From: Ignavibacteriales bacterium | GTDB lineage: Bacteria > Bacteroidota > Ignavibacteria > Ignavibacteriales > SURF-24 | Length of the DNA stretch: 64,000 bases | Direction of reading: 5' to 3' | NCBI GenBank assembly: GCA_026390815.1 | Contig: JAPLFH010000012.1 | Location: 1 to 64,000 of the forward strand | Shown: piece after piece, positions 43,244 through 53,291 of the stretch | Layout of the letters: each line of letters starts with the position of its first letter | Numbering within the stretch: position 1 is the stretch's first letter | Made by a program: the position numbers and the translations under genes | The notes under the pieces: model-generated | Databases searched by the model: none | Told to the model about the DNA's origin: nothing | Seen by the model: only the letters and a program-made list of their open reading frames with translations

Positions 43244-44962
43244 TTAGATCATTGATTTTGGATTTAACCTTTTTACAATCATATCGGCAATGGAACCACC
43301 AGAGGGAACCATTGGGAAAACCATTTCTTCTCTTACAACTTTAAACTCGATCAAAACGGGGCGATCATTTATAGCAAAAGCCTGATCTAATATGTCTTCT
43401 ACATTTTTAGGAGAATTTGTAGAGAAGGAAGCTAATCCAAATGCTTCTCCAACTTTAACAAAATCAGGATTGCTATTAGAAAGATCTGTAAAACTATATT
43501 TTTCTGCGTGAAATAATTCCTGCCATTGTCTTACCATTCCAAGAAAACCGTTATTCATTATAATAAATTTTATCGGAAGTTTATTTGCAGCAGCAGTTAT
43601 CAATTCCTGAATATTCATCTGGAAACCTCCATCACCGCTGATGGAAATTATTGGTCTATCTTTAACTCCAAATGCTGCACCTATAGAAGCCGGAACAGAA
43701 AATCCCATTGTGCCTAACCCACCGCTTGTTATATGCGAACGCGGATTGTTAAATTTATAAAACTGTGCAGTCCACATTTGATGTTGTCCAACATCTGTTA
43801 TTACAACTGCTTCTCCCTTTGTTTTTTCTGAAAGTTTCTGAAGTACATATTGAATACGCAACCTACCGTCATCTTCTTCAAAATCTAAAGGGCACTCCTC
43901 CCGCCAACCATTAATTTGATTCCACCAGTTTTCTAATTCTGGCGGATCTGTCATCTCCACTGCTAATTCAGCTAAAACATGTTTAACATCTCCAACAATT
44001 GGAAGATCTACAATTATGTTTTTATCTATTGCGGTTGGATCAATATCAACGTGAATTTTATATGCGTGTTTAGCAAATGTTTCAATCTTGCCAGTTACTC
44101 TATCGTCAAACCTTGCCCCCAGAGCCACAAGAACATCACAATTGTTAACGGCTTGATTTGCCCAGTATGTTCCATGCATTCCAAGCATACCAAGCGATAA
44201 ATCATCGTTGCCCGGAAATGCACCTAATCCTTGCAAAGTCATGGTTATTGGTAATTTATTTTCTCTTGCAAAAATTGAGAGTTCCTGAGTTCCATTGGAC
44301 ATAAGAACACCACCACCAACATAAAGTAATGGTCGTTCAGCTTTCCTTATCATCTCTGCTGCTTTTTTTATTTGATTCTGATGACCAAGATAAGTTGGTT
44401 TGTAACCACGCATTTCCACTGTTTCCGGATAATCAAACTCACACTTAGAACTTACAACATCCTTTGGTAGATCAACTAAAACTGGTCCAGGTCTTCCGGT
44501 AGAGGCAATATAGAAAGCCTTTTTTATTGTGCTTGCTAACTCGCGTACATCCCGAACCAGAAAATTATGTTTTGTAATTGGTCGGGTAATGCCAACAATA
44601 TCTGCTTCCTGAAATGCATCATTACCAATTAAGTGCGTTGCAACCTGACCGGTAAAAACAACAATCGGAATCGAATCCATATAAGCATCTGCAATTCCTG
44701 TAACTGTGTTTGTTGCACCCGGACCTGATGTAACCAATACAACACCAACTTTGCCCGTTGCTTTTGCATAGCCTTCCGCCATATGGGTAGCACCTTGTTC
44801 GTGGCGGACAAGAATATGCTTCAGGAAATCAACGTCGTAAAGGTGTTCATAAATTTTAAGTACAGCTCCACCCGGATAACCAAATACATATTCAACTTTT
44901 TCTTGCCTCAGGCACTCGAAAAATATTTCAGCGCCTGTCATCATTGGTTTAGATTTTTTCAT
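43244..44962 (-). CDS. ilvB: Acetolactate synthase large (catalytic) subunit
   Basis: 572-aa ThDP enzyme making acetolactate or acetohydroxybutyrate. The catalytic Glu is in [18 protein letters not shown], followed by [20 protein letters not shown]. The ThDP/Mg motif is [20 protein letters not shown] and ends near KFIIMNN. FAD-domain residues occupy the middle. Its ATG overlaps the ilvD stop (ATGA), so ilvD and ilvB are translationally coupled. Confidence 0.97.
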
Positions 44963-46668
44963 AAAGTTGCCTTTCTTGTTTCTTTTATTTCAGGAATTTT
45001 TAATATCGCTCCGGTATGCGCAGATGAAACCATTGTTGCATAACGAGCTAAGTAACCTCGTTTTATTTTTGGTTCGAAGTTCGGAAGTAAAGCGAGTCTT
45101 TCTTCAATTTCATTATCCGATAATTTCACATTTATCTTTTTATTCGGAATGTCAATTTCTATAATATCTCCGTTGTGTAATGCAGCAATTGGTCCATATT
45201 CAGCGGCTTCCGGGGAAACATGTCCGATGCAAGCGCCACGCGTTCCACCAGAAAATCTTCCATCTGTAATCAAAGCTACCTTATCACCTAAACCCATTCC
45301 CATAATTGCACTTGTGGGAGATAACATTTCCGGCATTCCTGGTCCTCCCTTGGGTCCTTCGTAACGGATTACAACAACATCTCCAGCTTTAACTTCGCTA
45401 TTTAAAATACCGGTTAATGCTTCATCCTGGGATTCATAAATTTTTGCCGGACCAGAGCATTGCATCATACTTGGATCTACCGCACCAGTTTTTACAACTG
45501 AGCCTTCGGGAGCCAGGTTTCCAAACAGAACTGCTAAACCACCTTTTTTTGAATAAGGTTCTTCTACACTTTTAATTACCTTCCTATCTTTAACAACAGC
45601 AGACGAAATATTTTCTCCCAAAGTTTTTCCTGTTACTGTTGGACGCGACAGATCAAGTGCTCCTTCAATTTTAGAGAGTTCATTTAAAATTGCAGAAATT
45701 CCACCAGCGTTATCTACATCTTCCATGTGAACAAGTTTAGTTGCTGGACTTACTTTACAGATATAAGGAATCCGCTCAGCCAGAGTGTTTAATTCGTGCA
45801 AATCAAATCCGATCTCAGCTTCATTTGCAATAGCAAGTGCATGAAGAACAGTATTCGTGCTTCCTCCCATTGCCATATCAAGTGCAAATGCGTTAAGGAA
45901 AGTTTCTCTGGATAGAATATCTCTCGGTTTTAAATCTTTTTCAACAAGATATATAATTTGTTTTGCCGCTTGTTTTGCTAATTCTTTTCTTCTGGGATCA
46001 ATTGCAAGGATAGAACCATTACCGGGGAGTGCTAAACCGAGGGCTTCCATCAAGCAGTTCATGGAGTTGGCGGTAAACATACCAGAACAAGAACCACAGG
46101 ATGGACAACTAAAATCTTCTAACTGTTTTAAACGTTCTTCATTTATTTTTCCTGTTTTAAATTCACCTACTCCTTCAAAGACAGAAATCAAATCAGTTTT
46201 TTCACCGGAAGGTAATCTACCGGCTTTCATTGGTCCACCAGAAATAAAAATAGTTGGAACATTAATTCGTACTGCAGCCATCAACATTCCGGGAACAATT
46301 TTATCACAGTTTGGAATGCAAACCATTCCATCTAAGCGGTGGGCTTCAACTACAGTTTCCACACAATCAGCAATCAATTCCCGGCTTGCTAAAGAATATC
46401 GCATTCCGATATGTCCCATTGCTATTCCATCATCAACACCAATAGTGTTGAATTCAAATGGAACTCCGCCTGCTTCTCTAACAGCATCTTTAATAATTTT
46501 TCCAAACTCCTGAAGATGTACATGTCCTGGAATCAAATCGATATATGAATTACAAACGCCGATGAATGGTTTTTTGAAATCTTCATCGCTTTTAATAACT
46601 CCGGTTGCTTTAAGTAAACTACGGTGTGGGGCTTTGTCATAGCCAGTTTTTATTAAATCAGATCTCAC
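44959..46668 (-). CDS. ilvD: Dihydroxy-acid dehydratase
   Basis: Fe-S dehydratase for the third common step of valine and isoleucine synthesis. Cluster cysteines: [25 protein letters not shown] and [41 protein letters not shown] and [19 protein letters not shown]-type segments ([10 protein letters not shown]) are clear. The open frame extends to 46713, but GTG at 46668, with AGAGG 5 nt upstream and 569 aa of conserved protein, is the likely start. First structural gene of the operon, preceded by a leader peptide and attenuator-like hairpins. Confidence 0.96.
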
Positions 46669-46733
46669 AATTACCTCTGAATGATTTTTAAATCTAATTT
46701 GCTTTTTATGCAAATCCTTCAGAAAATAATCTC

Positions 46734-46798
46734 AGGGTTTGGTCAACCCCTAATCTAATTTTCTATTTGTTTTGTTTTGGTATGTTTAGGGATTGACC
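46734..46798 (-). promoter_or_regulatory. Attenuator-like alternative hairpins upstream of ilvD
   Basis: On the minus strand, six bases after the leader stop, segment 46798-46787 can pair with 46752-46741 (12 positions, one G-U wobble), forming a long antiterminator-type stem with a 34-nt loop. The distal arm also takes part in a competing hairpin, 46750-46745 with 46739-46734 around a 5-nt loop, followed by GAGATTATTTTC. The two structures cannot coexist. A ribosome at the leader stop would cover the first segment. The U-tract is imperfect, so strength of termination is uncertain. Confidence 0.6.
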
Positions 46799-46804
46799 AT
46801 TATT

Positions 46805-46972
46805 TTAGCCTATAATGCTAATAATAGCAATTAGAGCTAGAATAATCGAAATCCCTAGGACGATGACTGAAGGAGTGTATTTTATACTATTGGACACAAC
46901 ACCGCGGTGGCAGCATAATGGTACCGCTTGATAACTTGTGATTATATTTTTTGTGGCGTCGTTCATTTTCAT
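46805..46972 (-). CDS. Putative ilv operon leader peptide, Ile/Leu/Val-rich
   Basis: 55-aa ORF beginning 14 nt after the promoter -7 box. Its last 21 residues contain 9 Ile, 3 Leu and 2 Val, ending GISIILALIAIISIIG just before the stop and the competing hairpins. This is the layout of ilvL/ivbL-type leaders, whose ribosome stalls when charged Ile/Leu/Val tRNAs run short. It is longer than the 32-aa enteric ilvL, and a central PLCCHRG segment is unusual. As its C-terminus is hydrophobic it could alternatively be a tiny membrane protein; position argues for a leader. Confidence 0.65.
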   Translation of the reverse strand: MKMNDATKNIITSYQAVPLCCHRGVVSNSIKYTPSVIVLGISIILALIAIISIIG

Positions 46973-46985
46973 TTTGAATTTGATA

Positions 46986-47016
46986 CAAATATAAAGCACG
47001 AATTGTCTTTTGTCAA
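46986..47016 (-). promoter_or_regulatory. Promoter of the ilv-leu-cimA operon
   Basis: Read on the minus strand: TTGACA (47016-47011), 17-nt spacer, TATATTTG (46993-46986), matching both a classic -35 box and the TAnnTTTG -7 box. It is the only good promoter before the leader ORF and faces away from the equivalent thr promoter about 100 nt to the right. Confidence 0.8.
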
Positions 47017-47115
47017 GTTTCTGTAAAATATTTGTGAATTTTTATTCAGAAAGCTTCCTTCTTATTCTTTAGAGAATGATAATTAAAATCATTTTCTAAG
47101 AGTTTAAAAAAATAT

Positions 47116-47146
47116 TTGACAAATAAGATTTCAAACATTACCTTTG
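47116..47146 (+). promoter_or_regulatory. Promoter of the thr operon
   Basis: TTGACA at 47116-47121, 17-nt spacer, TACCTTTG at 47139-47146 (exact TAnnTTTG). Same architecture and spacing as the divergent ilv promoter. The Thr-rich leader ORF begins 20 nt downstream of the -7 box. Confidence 0.8.
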
Positions 47147-47165
47147 CATTAAGTTATAAATAATT

Positions 47166-47240
47166 ATGAAAATAAAAGCAACACATATTACCGGTTCTAC
47201 AACAATGCATACTACAACACCTACACCCTTTACGGGCTGA
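47166..47240 (+). CDS. thrL: Thr operon leader peptide
   Basis: A 24-codon ORF (ATG 47166, TGA 47238) with nine Thr codons at positions 6, 9, 12, 13, 16, 17, 18, 20 and 23, plus Ile at 3 and 8. It lies between a strong promoter and a rho-independent terminator upstream of thrA, exactly the position of enteric thrL. Thr clustering this dense is not expected by chance. The stop codon overlaps the first arm of an antiterminator. The peptide itself probably has no function beyond sensing charged tRNA-Thr. Confidence 0.85.
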   Translation: MKIKATHITGSTTMHTTTPTPFTG

Positions 47241-47300
47241 AGTTGGCATTGCATACTTTTTTATGTAGAAACCGACTTCAGAGATTAAGTCGGTTTTTTT
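47237..47300 (+). promoter_or_regulatory. Thr operon transcription attenuator (antiterminator and terminator)
   Basis: Terminator: 9-bp perfect stem 47270-47278/47287-47295, 8-nt loop, then a T-tract to 47300. Antiterminator: 47237-47246 pairs with 47272-47281 (10 positions, one G-U), using the terminator's 5' arm. The antiterminator's first arm overlaps the leader stop codon. A ribosome reaching the stop therefore releases the terminator, while one stalled on Thr codons leaves the antiterminator free to form. About 140 nt then separate this from thrA, with no further gene. Confidence 0.85.
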
Positions 47301-47442
47301 GTTTTAAAGAGTATATTATAATAGTTGCTTGATTGTTTAGTTATTATTGAATTTGAAGAATAGAGAATTATAGAAGTCTGGTAGTAGATAAATGGAGAAT
47401 ATTTTAATTTAATAATTAATCAAATTTTAACTGAGAATAAAT

Positions 47443-49899
47443 ATGAAAGTTTTAAAATTTGGCGGTTCATCGGTTGGTAATCCTGAAAGGATTAAAAACG
47501 TAATTGACATTGTTATCCATAGCTACAAAAAAAATAAAAGAGTTGCAGTTATATTCTCTGCATTCCAGGGGATAACTGATTCTCTAATTAAAATGAGTAA
47601 CCTGGCATCAAAAGCGCATGACGATTATTGTTCCTTATTTGTAGATTTGAAACTAAGGCATATGGATGCTGCTAAACAACTAATATCCACTGCCAACCAA
47701 AAAAAAGCAATCGATGTATTGGAAACTGCTTTGGTAGAACTTGAGAATGTACTCTATGGAATATTTTTGGTAAAAGAATTATCACCCAAAACACTGGATT
47801 ATGTTATGAGTTTTGGTGAAAGACTCTCTTCATTTATTATTACCCAAAGTTTAATTGATCGGAAAATTAAAACGGAATTTCTGGATAGCCGTCTTTTAGT
47901 TAAGACTGATGAAACTTTTGGATCTGCGAAAGTAAATTTTGAAGTTACTAATGAATTAATAAGATCATATTTTCAGAAACATAAAAGTCTACAGGTAGTA
48001 ACAGGATTTATTGGATCAACTTCTACCAATGAAACCACTACAATTGGACGCGGTGGTTCAGACTATTCAGCATCAATATTTGGCGCTGCATTATCTGTTG
48101 ATGAAATTGAAATCTGGACTGACGTTGATGGAATTATGACTGCAGATCCTAGAAAAGTAAAAAAAGCTTTTTCTATTCCTAATATTAGTTTTGAAGAAGC
48201 AATGGAAATGTCGCATTTTGGAGCTAAGGTAATTCATCCCCCTACAATGAAACCTGCAATGGAACAAAATATTCCTATCAGGATAAGGAATACTTTTAAT
48301 CCAGGATTTGCAGGAACATTAATAGGTAAGCGGAATGGGGAAAATAAATTTCCTATTAAAGGTATATCCTCAATAGATAACATTTCCCTTCTCCGCATTG
48401 AAGGTAGTGGAATGACCGGTGCTGCTGGATTTGGACAAAGGATACTAAATGCTTTAGCTGTTGGTAAAATTAATGTAATGATGATTACAATGGCATCATC
48501 ACAGTACTCACTTTGCCTAGCCGTTCTGCCAAAATTTGCTTCTACAGCAAAAAAATTAATAGATGATGAGTTAAAATATGAAATACGCGATGGAATGGTT
48601 GAAGAAGTTTTTATTGAAAATAATCTTTCAATAATTGCTGTTGTTGGAGAAAATATGCGCAATGCAACAGGATTATCAGGAAGAGTATTTCAATCTCTTG
48701 GAAAGAATGGAATTAATATTGTATCAATTGCGCAAGGTTCGTCCGAATTAAACATTTCTGTTGTAATACCAAAAGAAGATGAAGCTAAAGCGTTAAATGC
48801 CATCCACGATGCTTTTTTCTTATCAGAATATAAATCTATTAATCTATTTGTGGTTGGAACCGGCTTAATTGGAAGAACTTTATTCAAGCAGATTCAAAAT
48901 CAACTCGACTTTCTTTCAAATGAATTATTTATTGACCTTAAGATAATGGCGATTGCTAACAGTCGAAAAATGTTGTTCGATTCAAGAGGACTTTCAATAA
49001 AAGATTGGGATGAAAGATTGAGCAATTCTACAGAACAAATGAATCTTAATGAATTTGTTTCCAGGATGACAGAACTTAATCTTCCTAATAGCATTTTTGT
49101 TGATTGTACTTCGAGCGAACAATTGTTGACTAAATACTTAGAAATTCTGCAGTCAAGTATTTCAATCGTTACACCAAACAAAAAAGCTAATTCGAGTAAC
49201 TATGAATTTTATCTGAAACTTAAGCAAGCAGCCCATAAACACAATGTTAAATTTCTTTATGAAACAAATGTTGGCGCTGGCTTACCAATAATAAGTACAC
49301 TGCAAGATCTGGTAACAAGCGGAGATAAAATTATAAAAATTGAAGGGATTTTATCGGGAACGCTTAGTTACATTTTTAACTCTTTTAATGGAAGCAAACC
49401 ATTTTCCAAAATTCTTAAAGAAGCGCAGGAGAAAGGATTTACAGAGCCGGATCCGCGTGATGATTTGAACGGACTTGACGTTGCGCGTAAATTATTAATT
49501 TTAGTAAGAGAAGCTGGCTACCAACTTGAATTGAATGATATTCAAATAGAAAATTTGATTCCATTAAACTGCAGAAAAAAATCATCTCTGGAAGAATTTT
49601 ATAAATCGCTTGAAAAAAATGATTCGTGGTTCGAAGATCGCAGAGAAAAAGCTTCTTTGGAAGGAAAATCTTTACGTTATATAGCAAAATATGAAAAAGG
49701 ATCAGCTGTTGTCTCTCTTCAGTCAGTAGATAGCAACCACCCGTTTTTTTCTATTTCTGGCAACGATAATATTGTTGCATTCAAAACAGTTTATTACAAC
49801 GAAAGACCAATTGTAATTGCAGGTCCCGGTGCTGGTGCAGAAGTTACATCCGGCGGAATCTTTGCTGATATAATCCGAATTGGTAATTATTTAATTTAA
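47443..49899 (+). CDS. thrA: Bifunctional aspartokinase / homoserine dehydrogenase
   Basis: 818-aa fusion catalysing the first and third steps from aspartate to homoserine. The aspartokinase domain begins VLKFGGSSVGNPERIKNV and has TTIGRGGSDYSASIFG and WTDVDGIMTADPRKV; ACT-type regulatory repeats lie at about 310-460 (AALFGQRIL-like GAAGFGQRILNALAVGKINV, GENMRNATGLSGRVFQSLGK). The homoserine dehydrogenase domain starts near 463 (LFVVGTGLIGRTLFKQI), with EGILSGTLSYIFNSF, EAQEKGFTEPDPRDDLNGLD and GPGAGAEVTSGGIFAD. First gene of the thr operon, controlled by the upstream attenuator. Confidence 0.96.
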   Translation: MKVLKFGGSSVGNPERIKNVIDIVIHSYKKNKRVAVIFSAFQGITDSLIKMSNLASKAHDDYCSLFVDLKLRHMDAAKQLISTANQKKAIDVLETALVELENVLYGIFLVKELSPKTLDYVMSFGERLSSFIITQSLIDRKIKTEFLDSRLLVKTDETFGSAKVNFEVTNELIRSYFQKHKSLQVVTGFIGSTSTNETTTIGRGGSDYSASIFGAALSVDEIEIWTDVDGIMTADPRKVKKAFSIPNISFEEAMEMSHFGAKVIHPPTMKPAMEQNIPIRIRNTFNPGFAGTLIGKRNGENKFPIKGISSIDNISLLRIEGSGMTGAAGFGQRILNALAVGKINVMMITMASSQYSLCLAVLPKFASTAKKLIDDELKYEIRDGMVEEVFIENNLSIIAVVGENMRNATGLSGRVFQSLGKNGINIVSIAQGSSELNISVVIPKEDEAKALNAIHDAFFLSEYKSINLFVVGTGLIGRTLFKQIQNQLDFLSNELFIDLKIMAIANSRKMLFDSRGLSIKDWDERLSNSTEQMNLNEFVSRMTELNLPNSIFVDCTSSEQLLTKYLEILQSSISIVTPNKKANSSNYEFYLKLKQAAHKHNVKFLYETNVGAGLPIISTLQDLVTSGDKIIKIEGILSGTLSYIFNSFNGSKPFSKILKEAQEKGFTEPDPRDDLNGLDVARKLLILVREAGYQLELNDIQIENLIPLNCRKKSSLEEFYKSLEKNDSWFEDRREKASLEGKSLRYIAKYEKGSAVVSLQSVDSNHPFFSISGNDNIVAFKTVYYNERPIVIAGPGAGAEVTSGGIFADIIRIGNYLI

Positions 49900-49909
49900 A
49901 GGAGAACTA

Positions 49910-50971
49910 ATGGAAGAATTGAAAAATAAAATATCAGTTGCTGTTTTAGGTGCTACCGGAAGCGTTGGACAAAAATTTATTGAACTACTTGCAAATCATC
50001 CATGGTTTATTGTTAAGGAAGTTGCGGCCTCAGAAAGATCTTCCGGTAAAAAATATAAAGAAGCTGTTAACTGGATATTATCATCTCAGCTTCCGGAAGA
50101 TATTGGAAATTTAATTGTTGAAGATTGCCTGCCTAATTTGAAAAGCAAAATTGTTTTTTCTGGATTGGATGCAAGTGTTGCTGGTGACATTGAAACTGAA
50201 TTTGCAAATGCTGGATATTATGTTATTTCTAATTCAAGGAATCACCGGTTTGATGAGGATGTTCCGCTGTTAATTCCGGAAGTAAATCCCGAACATCTTG
50301 AATTGATTAAGCTACAGAAGTGTAAAGGTGCAATAGTAACTAATCCTAATTGTTCCACCATTGGATTGGTATTAGCTCTTAAACCGTTGTATGATGCATT
50401 TGGAATTGAAGCAGTAAATGTTGTAACAATGCAAGCTTTATCTGGCGCAGGTTATCCTGGGGTAGCTTCTTTGGATATAATCGATAATGTTGTTCCGTTC
50501 ATTGGTGGTGAAGAAAAAAAGATGGAAACTGAACCGCTTAAAATCCTTGGGAAATTCGAAGATAACAAAATTCATTTTTCTGATTTTAAAATAAGTGCGC
50601 AATGTAACCGGGTTGCAGTATTGGATGGTCATTTAGAAACTGTCCAGGTAAAATTAAAAAGCAAAACATCTATCGAGGAAATAAAAAAAGTTTGGAAGGA
50701 TTTTACAAGTATAGCCCAGGAATTAAAACTTCCATTCGCTCCAGCTAAACCAATTTACTATTTTGAAGAGGATAAATATCCTCAACCAAAATTGCATCGG
50801 AATTTGGATAAGGGCATGGCTGCAAGCATTGGCAGACTGAGGGAATGTCCTATTTTCGATTATAAATTTGTAGTTCTTTCCCACAACACAATTCGTGGTG
50901 CTGCGGGTGGAGCAATTCTTAACGCAGAATTGATGATAGAAAAAGGATACTTTAAAAATATTAATTATTAA
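49910..50971 (+). CDS. asd: Aspartate-semialdehyde dehydrogenase (archaeal/fungal type)
   Basis: 353-aa NADP enzyme reducing aspartyl phosphate. N-terminal ISVAVLGATGSVGQKFIELL, then AASERSSGKKY, the catalytic Cys in AIVTNPNCSTIGLVLALKPL, QALSGAGYPG and the C-terminal VVLSHNTIRGAAGGAILNAEL. The AASERSSGKKY stretch and length resemble the archaeal/fungal branch rather than the enteric one. GGAG sits 6 nt before the ATG and 10 nt after thrA. Supplies the ThrA homoserine dehydrogenase half. Confidence 0.95.
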   Translation: MEELKNKISVAVLGATGSVGQKFIELLANHPWFIVKEVAASERSSGKKYKEAVNWILSSQLPEDIGNLIVEDCLPNLKSKIVFSGLDASVAGDIETEFANAGYYVISNSRNHRFDEDVPLLIPEVNPEHLELIKLQKCKGAIVTNPNCSTIGLVLALKPLYDAFGIEAVNVVTMQALSGAGYPGVASLDIIDNVVPFIGGEEKKMETEPLKILGKFEDNKIHFSDFKISAQCNRVAVLDGHLETVQVKLKSKTSIEEIKKVWKDFTSIAQELKLPFAPAKPIYYFEEDKYPQPKLHRNLDKGMAASIGRLRECPIFDYKFVVLSHNTIRGAAGGAILNAELMIEKGYFKNINY

Positions 50972-51005: not shown

Positions 51006-51944
51006 ATGCACAAAGAAATCAGAGTATTTGCTCCTGCCACAGTTTCAAATGTAGCTTGTGGTTTTGATGTGATGGGATTCGCAATCGATCAGCCTGGTGA
51101 TGAAGTTGTTGTTCGATTAAGTAAAAATTCCTGTGTAACAATTTCCAAAATAACAGGTGATGATGGGAAGCTTCCGCTTGATCCAAATAAAAATACTGCC
51201 GGGGCACCTGTTATTGCTTTATTAAAACATCTTGGGATGAATATTGGAATTGAAATTGAAATTCATAAAAAGATGGCATTGGGAAGCGGACTTGGATCGA
51301 GTGCAGCAAGTGCTGTAGCTTCGGCATATGCTCTAAATGAATTGTTGGGAACTGGTCTATCAAATAAAGAACTCCTTCCATTTGCTATTGAAGGTGAAAA
51401 AATTGCAAGCGGAGCTGTGCATGCAGATAATGTTGCACCTTGTCTATTTGGTGGATTTATTTTAATCCGCGGTTATAATCCAATTGATATTGTGGAAATT
51501 CCTGTTCCTTCAAATTTATTTTGTACTGTGATTCATCCGCATCTTGAAATCAACACGAAAGAATCAAGGAAGTTATTACCAAAAGATATCCCATTATCGC
51601 TGGCAAAGACACATTGGGGGAATACTGCTGGTTTGATTGCTGGATTATTAAAGCAGGATTTTGATTTGATAAGCCGATCATTGATAGATGTAATTGTTGA
51701 ACCAGTACGATCCCCATTTATTCCAGGGTATAATGAAGTTAAACTCTCTGCAATGGAAGCCGGTGCACTTGGATGCAATATTTCCGGATCAGGTCCGGCA
51801 ATTTTTGCATTATCAAACTCGCAGGATGTTGCTAACAATATTGGCAAGGTTATGAAAGAACAATTAAATAATATTAAATTGTCAAACACAGTGTTCGTTT
51901 CAAAAATTAATAAACAAGGACCTAAAATAATTGATATGGAATAA
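51006..51944 (+). CDS. thrB: Homoserine kinase
   Basis: 312-aa GHMP-family kinase phosphorylating homoserine with ATP. The ATP loop is KMALGSGLGSSAASAVASAYALNE in the Pro-free variant; N-terminal VFAPATVSNVACGFDVMGFAI, NVAPCLFGGFILI and the C-terminal CNISGSGPAIFALS complete the family pattern. It lies 34 nt after asd and 45 nt before thrC. Confidence 0.95.
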   Translation: MHKEIRVFAPATVSNVACGFDVMGFAIDQPGDEVVVRLSKNSCVTISKITGDDGKLPLDPNKNTAGAPVIALLKHLGMNIGIEIEIHKKMALGSGLGSSAASAVASAYALNELLGTGLSNKELLPFAIEGEKIASGAVHADNVAPCLFGGFILIRGYNPIDIVEIPVPSNLFCTVIHPHLEINTKESRKLLPKDIPLSLAKTHWGNTAGLIAGLLKQDFDLISRSLIDVIVEPVRSPFIPGYNEVKLSAMEAGALGCNISGSGPAIFALSNSQDVANNIGKVMKEQLNNIKLSNTVFVSKINKQGPKIIDME

Positions 51945-51989: not shown

Positions 51990-53291
51990 ATGAAGTATTA
52001 CAGCACTAATAATAAAAATAATTTAGTCAGCTTCAAGCAGGCTGTTCAAAAAGGAATTGCTGATGATGGCGGGTTATTCTTACCAACACAAATTCCAGTT
52101 ATGGAGCAAGAATTTTTTAAAAACATTTCTTCTCTTTCTTTTAAAGAAATAGCATTTACAATTGCCAGACAGTTTATTGAAGATGAAATAGCAGAAGATG
52201 ATTTAGAAAGCATTATAAACCAGACTTTCAATTTTCCAAGTCCGATTGTTTCGCTTAATAAAAATCTTTTTGTGCTGGAATTATTTCACGGACCAACTCT
52301 TGCTTTCAAAGATTTTGGCGCAAGATTTATGGCTAATACACTTTCCTATTTTATTAAAAATGAAAGTAAGGAAATTGTAATCCTGGTGGCAACTTCCGGC
52401 GATACTGGTAGCGCTGTTGCAAATGGATTTTACAATGTTGAAGGAATCAAAGTAATACTGCTCTACCCTTCTGGAAAAGTCAGCAAAATTCAAGAGCAGC
52501 AATTAACCACGCTCGGTGGAAACATTACAGCTTTAGAAGTAGAAGGAACATTTGATGACTGCCAGCGGTTAGTGAAGGAAGCTTTTGCTGATAAGGATTT
52601 AAATGACAAACTGAATCTAACTTCTGCAAACTCAATAAATATTGCCAGATTAATTCCGCAATCATTTTATTACTTTAATGCTTACGCACAGGTTAAAGAA
52701 AAAAATAATCCAATTATTTTTTCTGTACCAAGTGGTAACCTTGGAAACTTAACAGGTGGTTTAATTGCTTTTAAAATGGGTTTACCAGTACATAAATTTA
52801 TTGCGGCTTGCAATAGTAATGATGTAGTAACAAATTATATCAAATCCGGACTGTTTATTCCTAAACCATCAGTACAAACTATTTCTAACGCGATGGATGT
52901 TGGAAACCCAAGCAACTTTGCAAGAATCATTTCTCTATTTAAGAATGATTATGAACTGATCAAGAAAATAATTTTCAGCCGCTCATATTCTGATGATGAA
53001 ACCCGTAATTCAATTAAAGAGATTTATGAAAATTATAAATATGTAATTGATCCTCATGGTGCAGTTGGATATTTGGCTTTAAAAGAATATTTGAATGGTG
53101 AAACAAATATTTATAATTCAATAGTATTGGAAACTGCTCATCCAGCAAAATTTAAAGATGAAGTAGAAAGTGTAATTAATAAATCAATTCAATTACCTGA
53201 TAGTTTGAAAGAATGTCTGGTAAAGGAAAAACATTCTGTTATCCTTTCAAATTCATTTGATGAATTTAAATCATTTCTAATCGGCAAATAA
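51990..53291 (+). CDS. thrC: Threonine synthase
   Basis: 433-aa PLP enzyme turning O-phosphohomoserine into threonine. The N-terminal YYSTNNKNNLVSFKQAVQKG and DDGGLFLPTQIP are typical of the long ThrC type. The PLP Lys is in HGPTLAFKDFGARFMA, the phosphate-binding strand is ILVATSGDTGSAVANGF, and FSVPSGNLGNLTGG follows. Last threonine gene; proC follows 28 nt later. Confidence 0.96.
   Translation: MKYYSTNNKNNLVSFKQAVQKGIADDGGLFLPTQIPVMEQEFFKNISSLSFKEIAFTIARQFIEDEIAEDDLESIINQTFNFPSPIVSLNKNLFVLELFHGPTLAFKDFGARFMANTLSYFIKNESKEIVILVATSGDTGSAVANGFYNVEGIKVILLYPSGKVSKIQEQQLTTLGGNITALEVEGTFDDCQRLVKEAFADKDLNDKLNLTSANSINIARLIPQSFYYFNAYAQVKEKNNPIIFSVPSGNLGNLTGGLIAFKMGLPVHKFIAACNSNDVVTNYIKSGLFIPKPSVQTISNAMDVGNPSNFARIISLFKNDYELIKKIIFSRSYSDDETRNSIKEIYENYKYVIDPHGAVGYLALKEYLNGETNIYNSIVLETAHPAKFKDEVESVINKSIQLPDSLKECLVKEKHSVILSNSFDEFKSFLIGK

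Follow-up and report, generated by a model that had tools for sequence, protein, structure and literature searches.

A predicted ribosome-coupled attenuator of the threonine operon in Ignavibacteriales, and the apparent reuse of its RNA core with exchanged leader codons

Attenuators are usually described operon by operon. Among the closest described systems to the locus reported here is the enteric thrABC attenuator (thrL; Rfam Thr_leader), in which a Thr-rich leader precedes thrA and a competing antiterminator is combined with an intrinsic terminator. In 2010 a His leader widened the known range of the mechanism to Firmicutes (PMC2965389). Leader-peptide attenuator candidates before amino-acid operons of Flavobacterium psychrophilum have been proposed from transcriptome and structure (PMC9723704); these candidates probably come from the same phylum as the present locus and use the same kind of mechanism. 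Actinobacteria have Cys-codon-rich leader peptides before cysteine genes, which lack a conserved terminator hairpin (PMC1262725), and the ilvB-II and ilvB-OMG motifs are RNA motifs that have been re-read as uORF-coupled attenuators (PMC10272879), although they concern other genes and another RNA. Finally, the Trp leader of Sinorhizobium is reported to act in trans (PMC7298713). The preliminary description of the present locus implied novelty by stating that such attenuation is best documented in Proteobacteria and Actinobacteria, which was an overstatement in view of the Firmicutes His leader and of the Flavobacterium candidates.

The window that we analysed is a stretch of 64,000 nucleotides from an Ignavibacteriales bacterium. 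The features of the threonine locus within it are as follows.

47115-47146, + strand: promoter of Bacteroidota type, TTTGACA (47115-47121), a 17-nt spacer and TACCTTTG (47139-47146); from the sequence, and kept in relatives
47166-47240, + strand: leader ORF of 24 codons with 9 Thr codons and 1 internal Met, MKIKATHITGSTTMHTTTPTPFTG and stop; from the sequence, with counterparts in relatives
47203-47251, + strand: possible 1:2 protector, CAAUGC (47203-47208) with GCAUUG (47246-47251), a pairing that would keep arm 2 occupied; predicted fold
47237-47246, + strand: antiterminator arm 2, CTGAAGTTGG, which holds the leader stop codon TGA (47238-47240); predicted pairing, and covariation with arm 3
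47269-47281, + strand: arm 3, AAACCGACTTCAG, common to antiterminator and terminator; predicted folds
47287-47305, + strand: terminator arm 4, AAGTCGGTTT, and U-tract (47293-47299, then GTTTT); sequence and predicted fold
47443-49899, + strand: thrA, bifunctional aspartate kinase / homoserine dehydrogenase I; NCBIfam NF006959, 1045.6 bits against a cut-off of 726
49910-50971, + strand: asd; NCBIfam NF006416, above cut-off
51006-51944, + strand: thrB; NCBIfam NF002288, above cut-off
51990-53291, + strand: thrC; NCBIfam TIGR00260, above cut-off

The operon has the order thrA-asd-thrB-thrC with short intergenic gaps, and an intrinsic terminator sits between the leader ORF and the first gene, thrA. 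The position of the promoter suggests a transcription start near 47150, and its type, like the composition of the phylum, agrees with Bacteroidota. The preliminary description had reported a 24-codon ORF with nine Thr codons, a terminator at 47270-47295 followed by a T-tract, and an antiterminator (47237-47246 with 47272-47281) that competes for the same arm and overlaps the leader stop; the ORF is where it was placed and its Thr count is correct, and both helices can be drawn as reported. The Thr content of the ORF is the highest among the 978 ORFs of 15-40 codons in the whole window, and the probability of finding at least nine Thr in 23 codons at the mean Thr frequency of these ORFs is 9e-8. 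No Shine-Dalgarno sequence is evident at this ORF, an absence that is usual in Bacteroidota. Met codons adjoin Thr codons in the leader, a pattern that recurs in relatives.

In the antiterminator, arm 2 pairs with CCGACTTCAG (47272-47281) at 10 of 10 positions, one of them G-U. In the terminator, 47269/47270-47279 pairs with 47287-47296, and the stem is followed by seven U and then GUUUU. Since arm 3 is common to both helices, antiterminator and terminator are mutually exclusive. Their predicted energies are -17.9 kcal/mol for the antiterminator hairpin and -13.7 kcal/mol for the terminator, and none of 200 dinucleotide shuffles matched the fold of the real segments (z from -3.4 to -5.5).

From this organisation, together with the conservation, covariation and codon exchange described below, we consider it very probable that 47115-47305 is a ribosome-coupled transcription attenuator of thrA-asd-thrB-thrC. 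We infer translation of the leader ORF, ribosome stalling and the regulatory outcome as follows. Transcription would start just after 47146, and the leader peptide would be translated as the RNA emerges. When threonyl-tRNA is plentiful, the ribosome would reach the stop codon at 47238-47240 and mask arm 2, so that arms 3 and 4 would pair and transcription would terminate after the U-tract, near 47300. When threonyl-tRNA is scarce, the ribosome would stall on Thr codons before it reaches arm 2, leaving arm 2 free for 2:3 pairing; the terminator would then not form and thrA would be transcribed. One point against the attenuator is the late Thr codon at 47232-47234, whose closeness to arm 2 means that a ribosome stalled on it would promote termination. 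A 1:2 protector, allowing termination without translation, can be suggested only tentatively from the predicted duplex, which has a z of -1.0 in the window and a mean z of -1.75 over 29 sequences.

The arrangement fits the logic of enteric thr attenuation, as had been proposed, except that in relatives it is Met, not Ile, that accompanies Thr. It also differs from the enteric system in its Bacteroidota promoter and in having asd in the operon. Membership of the Rfam Thr_leader family was rejected because a covariance-model match is absent: there is none in 47100-47442 up to an E value of 10, nor in the window at the gathering score. Rfam scans of the window for ilvB-II, ilvB-OMG and the SAM-I riboswitch (RF00162) likewise gave no match.

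The element is conserved. A ThrA search gave matches in 94 of 164 genomes of the same order, and the upstream regions of 90 thrA or aspartokinase genes were read. The full set of promoter, Thr-rich leader, arms 2, 3 and 4 and U-tract is found at 21 thrA loci, comprising the window and 20 relatives, from families f1 and f2. A diverged 22nd thrA locus (L033, family f3) has a Thr-rich leader and an unrelated terminator. The promoter TTTGAC..TAnnTTTG, or a close variant of it, occurs at an unchanged position in nearly all relatives, and their leaders, with 4-9 Thr codons each, stop inside arm 2 or next to it. Both folds are predicted at all 22 thrA loci (mean z -2.7 for the antiterminator and -5.4 for the terminator); several relatives have an A-C mismatch in the terminator, or one or two mismatches in the antiterminator.

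The preliminary description had suggested looking for conserved Thr codons and for covariation in the stems of relatives, and both are present. In eight ungapped leaders, the codon differs in 78 of 146 aligned Thr/Thr pairs, and the proportion of synonymous differences exceeds that of nonsynonymous ones (pS 0.63, pN 0.35). It follows from this turnover of codons and excess of synonymous differences that it is the amino acid Thr that is kept; the peptide is variable outside its Thr/Met and arm-2 codons. In the 2:3 helix, compensatory changes occur at two or three positions, including C-G to U-A at one pair in seven sequences and U-A to G-C at another in two. Over 29 sequences there are 12 double-change cells in this helix, against 3.9 in shuffles, and the pairing of no other register comes close; the hom and cysK forms described below carry no separate covariation score, the aligner having misplaced their arm 2. 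The 3:4 helix is less variable than the 2:3 helix, its changes including G-C to A-U.

A covariance model trained solely on the 21 thrA leaders was run on the 164 genomes of the order. Strong matches beyond thrA lie before four other genes: metY (O-acetylhomoserine sulfhydrylase), a split homoserine dehydrogenase (hom), thrB and cysK, with gene identities confirmed by NCBIfam. The metY genes of G001 and G002 have the Met-rich leaders LKNISLNSAMSMWMCMMIPLGS (with a TTG start) and MTLNSAMWMCMIMMFPQGS; the split hom genes of G068 and G034 have the Thr and Met leaders MNNQVFTYNPMCTTTTMCMLMTTPAMEVNAGL and MNYKVLTYSPMCTMMCMAMTTLIPKVISGL; thrB of G068 has the leader MNKNKSSYRALPTPSVTTPTTPTFMSGG, which is nearly Thr only; and cysK of G029 (L120) has the Cys leader MKTKISTYNSCCQIICMVCLTCILEVNEGL. 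A class-wide search added the thrA of G406 (L125), from another family of the class, with the leader MNLSALHIVTGTTMMTIPSGDG. In this sample, in which thrB and cysK come from one genome each, hom from two and metY from two of one genus, the leader codons track the gene product: Met before the gene of the Met branch, Thr and Met before that of the common step, Thr before that of the Thr branch, and Cys before cysK. Because the model was trained on thrA leaders only, and most of the ORF lies outside it, this exchange of codons is an independent check of the role of the peptide.

An enlarged model (R2) found a convincing copy in 25 of the 164 genomes of the order, namely all five of family f1 and twenty of family f2. 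The window's own genome contains no second copy, the next match having an E value of 0.1 and no leader. Weak matches in other orders and classes (L118, L126-L128 and L141-L168) look like gene-end terminators or coding sequence, and those elsewhere in the phylum look like plain terminators; both groups were rejected.

We regard it as likely that this lineage has put one attenuator core to use in several places of its aspartate and sulfur amino-acid pathways by exchange of codons (Thr, Thr and Met, Met, or Cys), including a Met-codon attenuator that replaces a SAM riboswitch before metY. With one homologous core before genes of several products, and codons that track the gene, specificity can be read from the sequence and is open to testing by codon swaps; such relatives form an unusually clean natural test of how leader-peptide switches work. 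The cysK leader resembles the Actinobacteria leaders in its Cys codons, but differs from them in carrying the thr-type terminator core.

The probable replacement at metY can be followed in sister genomes. A SAM-I riboswitch (RF00162) lies upstream of metY in the window's genome, in G003, G004, G068 and G025, and in others, whereas none was found before metY of G001 and G002, which have the Met-codon attenuator there. A search of the five family genomes gave a single SAM riboswitch in each of G000, G003 and G004, and G001 and G002 had none anywhere; as the drafts are 97-100% complete, this absence is good evidence, though not absolute. The riboswitch is the more widely distributed of the two elements, which suggests that it was replaced by the attenuator. 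While the riboswitch senses SAM directly, the presence of a Met-codon attenuator at the same gene suggests a change in the sensed signal, to charged tRNA-Met instead of SAM. Elsewhere in the order, six metY loci (L201, L209, L210, L222, L223 and L226) have short Met/Cys-rich ORFs, for example MCMCCMCNIGPR, MCCSMCMMCLSKRERDII and MMAMMCMSDLMREGII, 150-390 nt before metY; several of these ORFs lie close to a SAM-I riboswitch, and they may represent chance, aptamer sequence or a second sensor.

Whether the thrA element responds to Met besides Thr, as a two-amino-acid attenuator of the common Thr/Met branch, is a close question, and we lean slightly towards an answer of yes. Met makes up 47 of the 599 codons (7.8%) of 24 thrA leaders against a background of 2.1%, an enrichment of 3.8 times that is inflated, with an optimistic P value, because the leader sequences are related; each leader has at least one internal Met. 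By the same count, which takes codons after the start and uses long window ORFs as background, Thr stands at 28% against 5.0%. ThrA makes the precursor of both Thr and Met, and the codon-exchanged forms fall in the corresponding pattern, with Thr and Met in the hom leaders, nearly Thr only in the thrB leader and Met only in the metY leaders. Against this, the window's leader has one internal Met to set beside nine Thr, and Met codons may serve RNA pairing. The enrichment implies that the switch of the relatives probably senses both end products of ThrA, and the single internal Met of the window's leader that Thr dominates there. These correlations suggest control of the common enzyme ThrA by both of its end products, much as Thr and Ile are both sensed by the E. 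coli leader.

It is very improbable that the terminated leader RNA or its peptide has an additional role in trans: termination would yield a small RNA of some 150 nt, and the Sinorhizobium Trp leader offers a precedent (PMC7298713), but the peptide varies outside its Thr/Met and arm-2 codons. Least probable of all, to the point of being nearly negligible, is an ordinary intrinsic terminator accompanied by a Thr-rich ORF that arose by chance or low complexity, for although the resemblance of gene-end terminators outside the order to the core means that the terminator sequence alone is not special, no + strand gene ends just upstream, the Thr content is the extreme of its size class and is kept through codon changes, arms 2 and 3 covary, and the promoter, the ORF and the two helices are found again before thrA in 20 relatives.

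The ribosome-coupled attenuator is of a known kind as a mechanism; of the codon-exchanged family and its Met-sensing member we have found no earlier description. The family is absent from Rfam. No report of a Met-codon leader attenuator was found in the literature searched; a comparative survey (Lopatovskaya 2010), outside that search, could contain related cases. For this branch of the Bacteroidota the element offers a compact genetic means of access to threonine control, and its RNA family would be an addition to Rfam.

The wider use of peptide-coupled attenuation that had been suggested is supported by unrelated Thr-rich leaders before thrA in several other Bacteroidota families, and by a conserved Ile/Leu/Val leader before ilvD in the same window. 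In other families of the phylum (L230, L233-L238, L182, L183 and L192), thrA is preceded by Thr- or Thr/Ile-rich leaders whose last residues are TTP or TTG. A small hairpin, often ACCCCTTAGGGGT or otherwise ACGGGGTAACCCGT, spans their stop codon, and no intrinsic terminator is clearly present. L228 and L229 have a terminator and a plausible antiterminator whose sequence is unrelated to the thrA core, and some other families have no Thr-rich ORF before thrA. The thrA leaders of these other Bacteroidota families have 3' ends different from that of the element described here.

Upstream of lysC-like aspartokinase genes in family f3 (L079-L089 and L093), Thr-codon-rich ORFs end in T-x-T-x-T..R or C and a stop, at a distance of 50-75 nt from the start codon of the gene. 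Their stop is accompanied by ACGCGTTAA or ACGTGCACGTG and followed by a pyrimidine-rich stretch, and there is no intrinsic terminator; to judge from these sequences, they are possibly translational or Rho-dependent Thr leaders. A second aspartokinase-like gene lies outside the window (G000:C12:93684-94862, - strand); it shares 28% identity with ThrA, and the matching region contains one in-frame TAG.

The leader before ilvD (44959-46713) is attenuator-like, occupies 46731-47016 on the - strand and has a TTGACA promoter. Its ORF ends in SVIVLGISIILALIAIISIIG and a stop at 46805. Here GGTCAATCCCTA (46787-46798) pairs with AGGGGTTGACC (46741-46751), which can alternatively pair with AAACCCT (46734-46740), and the leader codons CTAGGGATT (46850-46858) are complementary to AATCCCTA. 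With its weak U-tract, the candidate may act on transcription or on translation. The Ile/Leu/Val-rich leader and its pairing recur before ilvD in all 13 relatives examined (families f1, f2 and f3), with apparent compensatory changes in the pairing (GGTCAATCCC/GGGGTTGACC, GGTTAATCCC/GGGGTTAACC and GGTCGATCCC/GGGGTCGACC).
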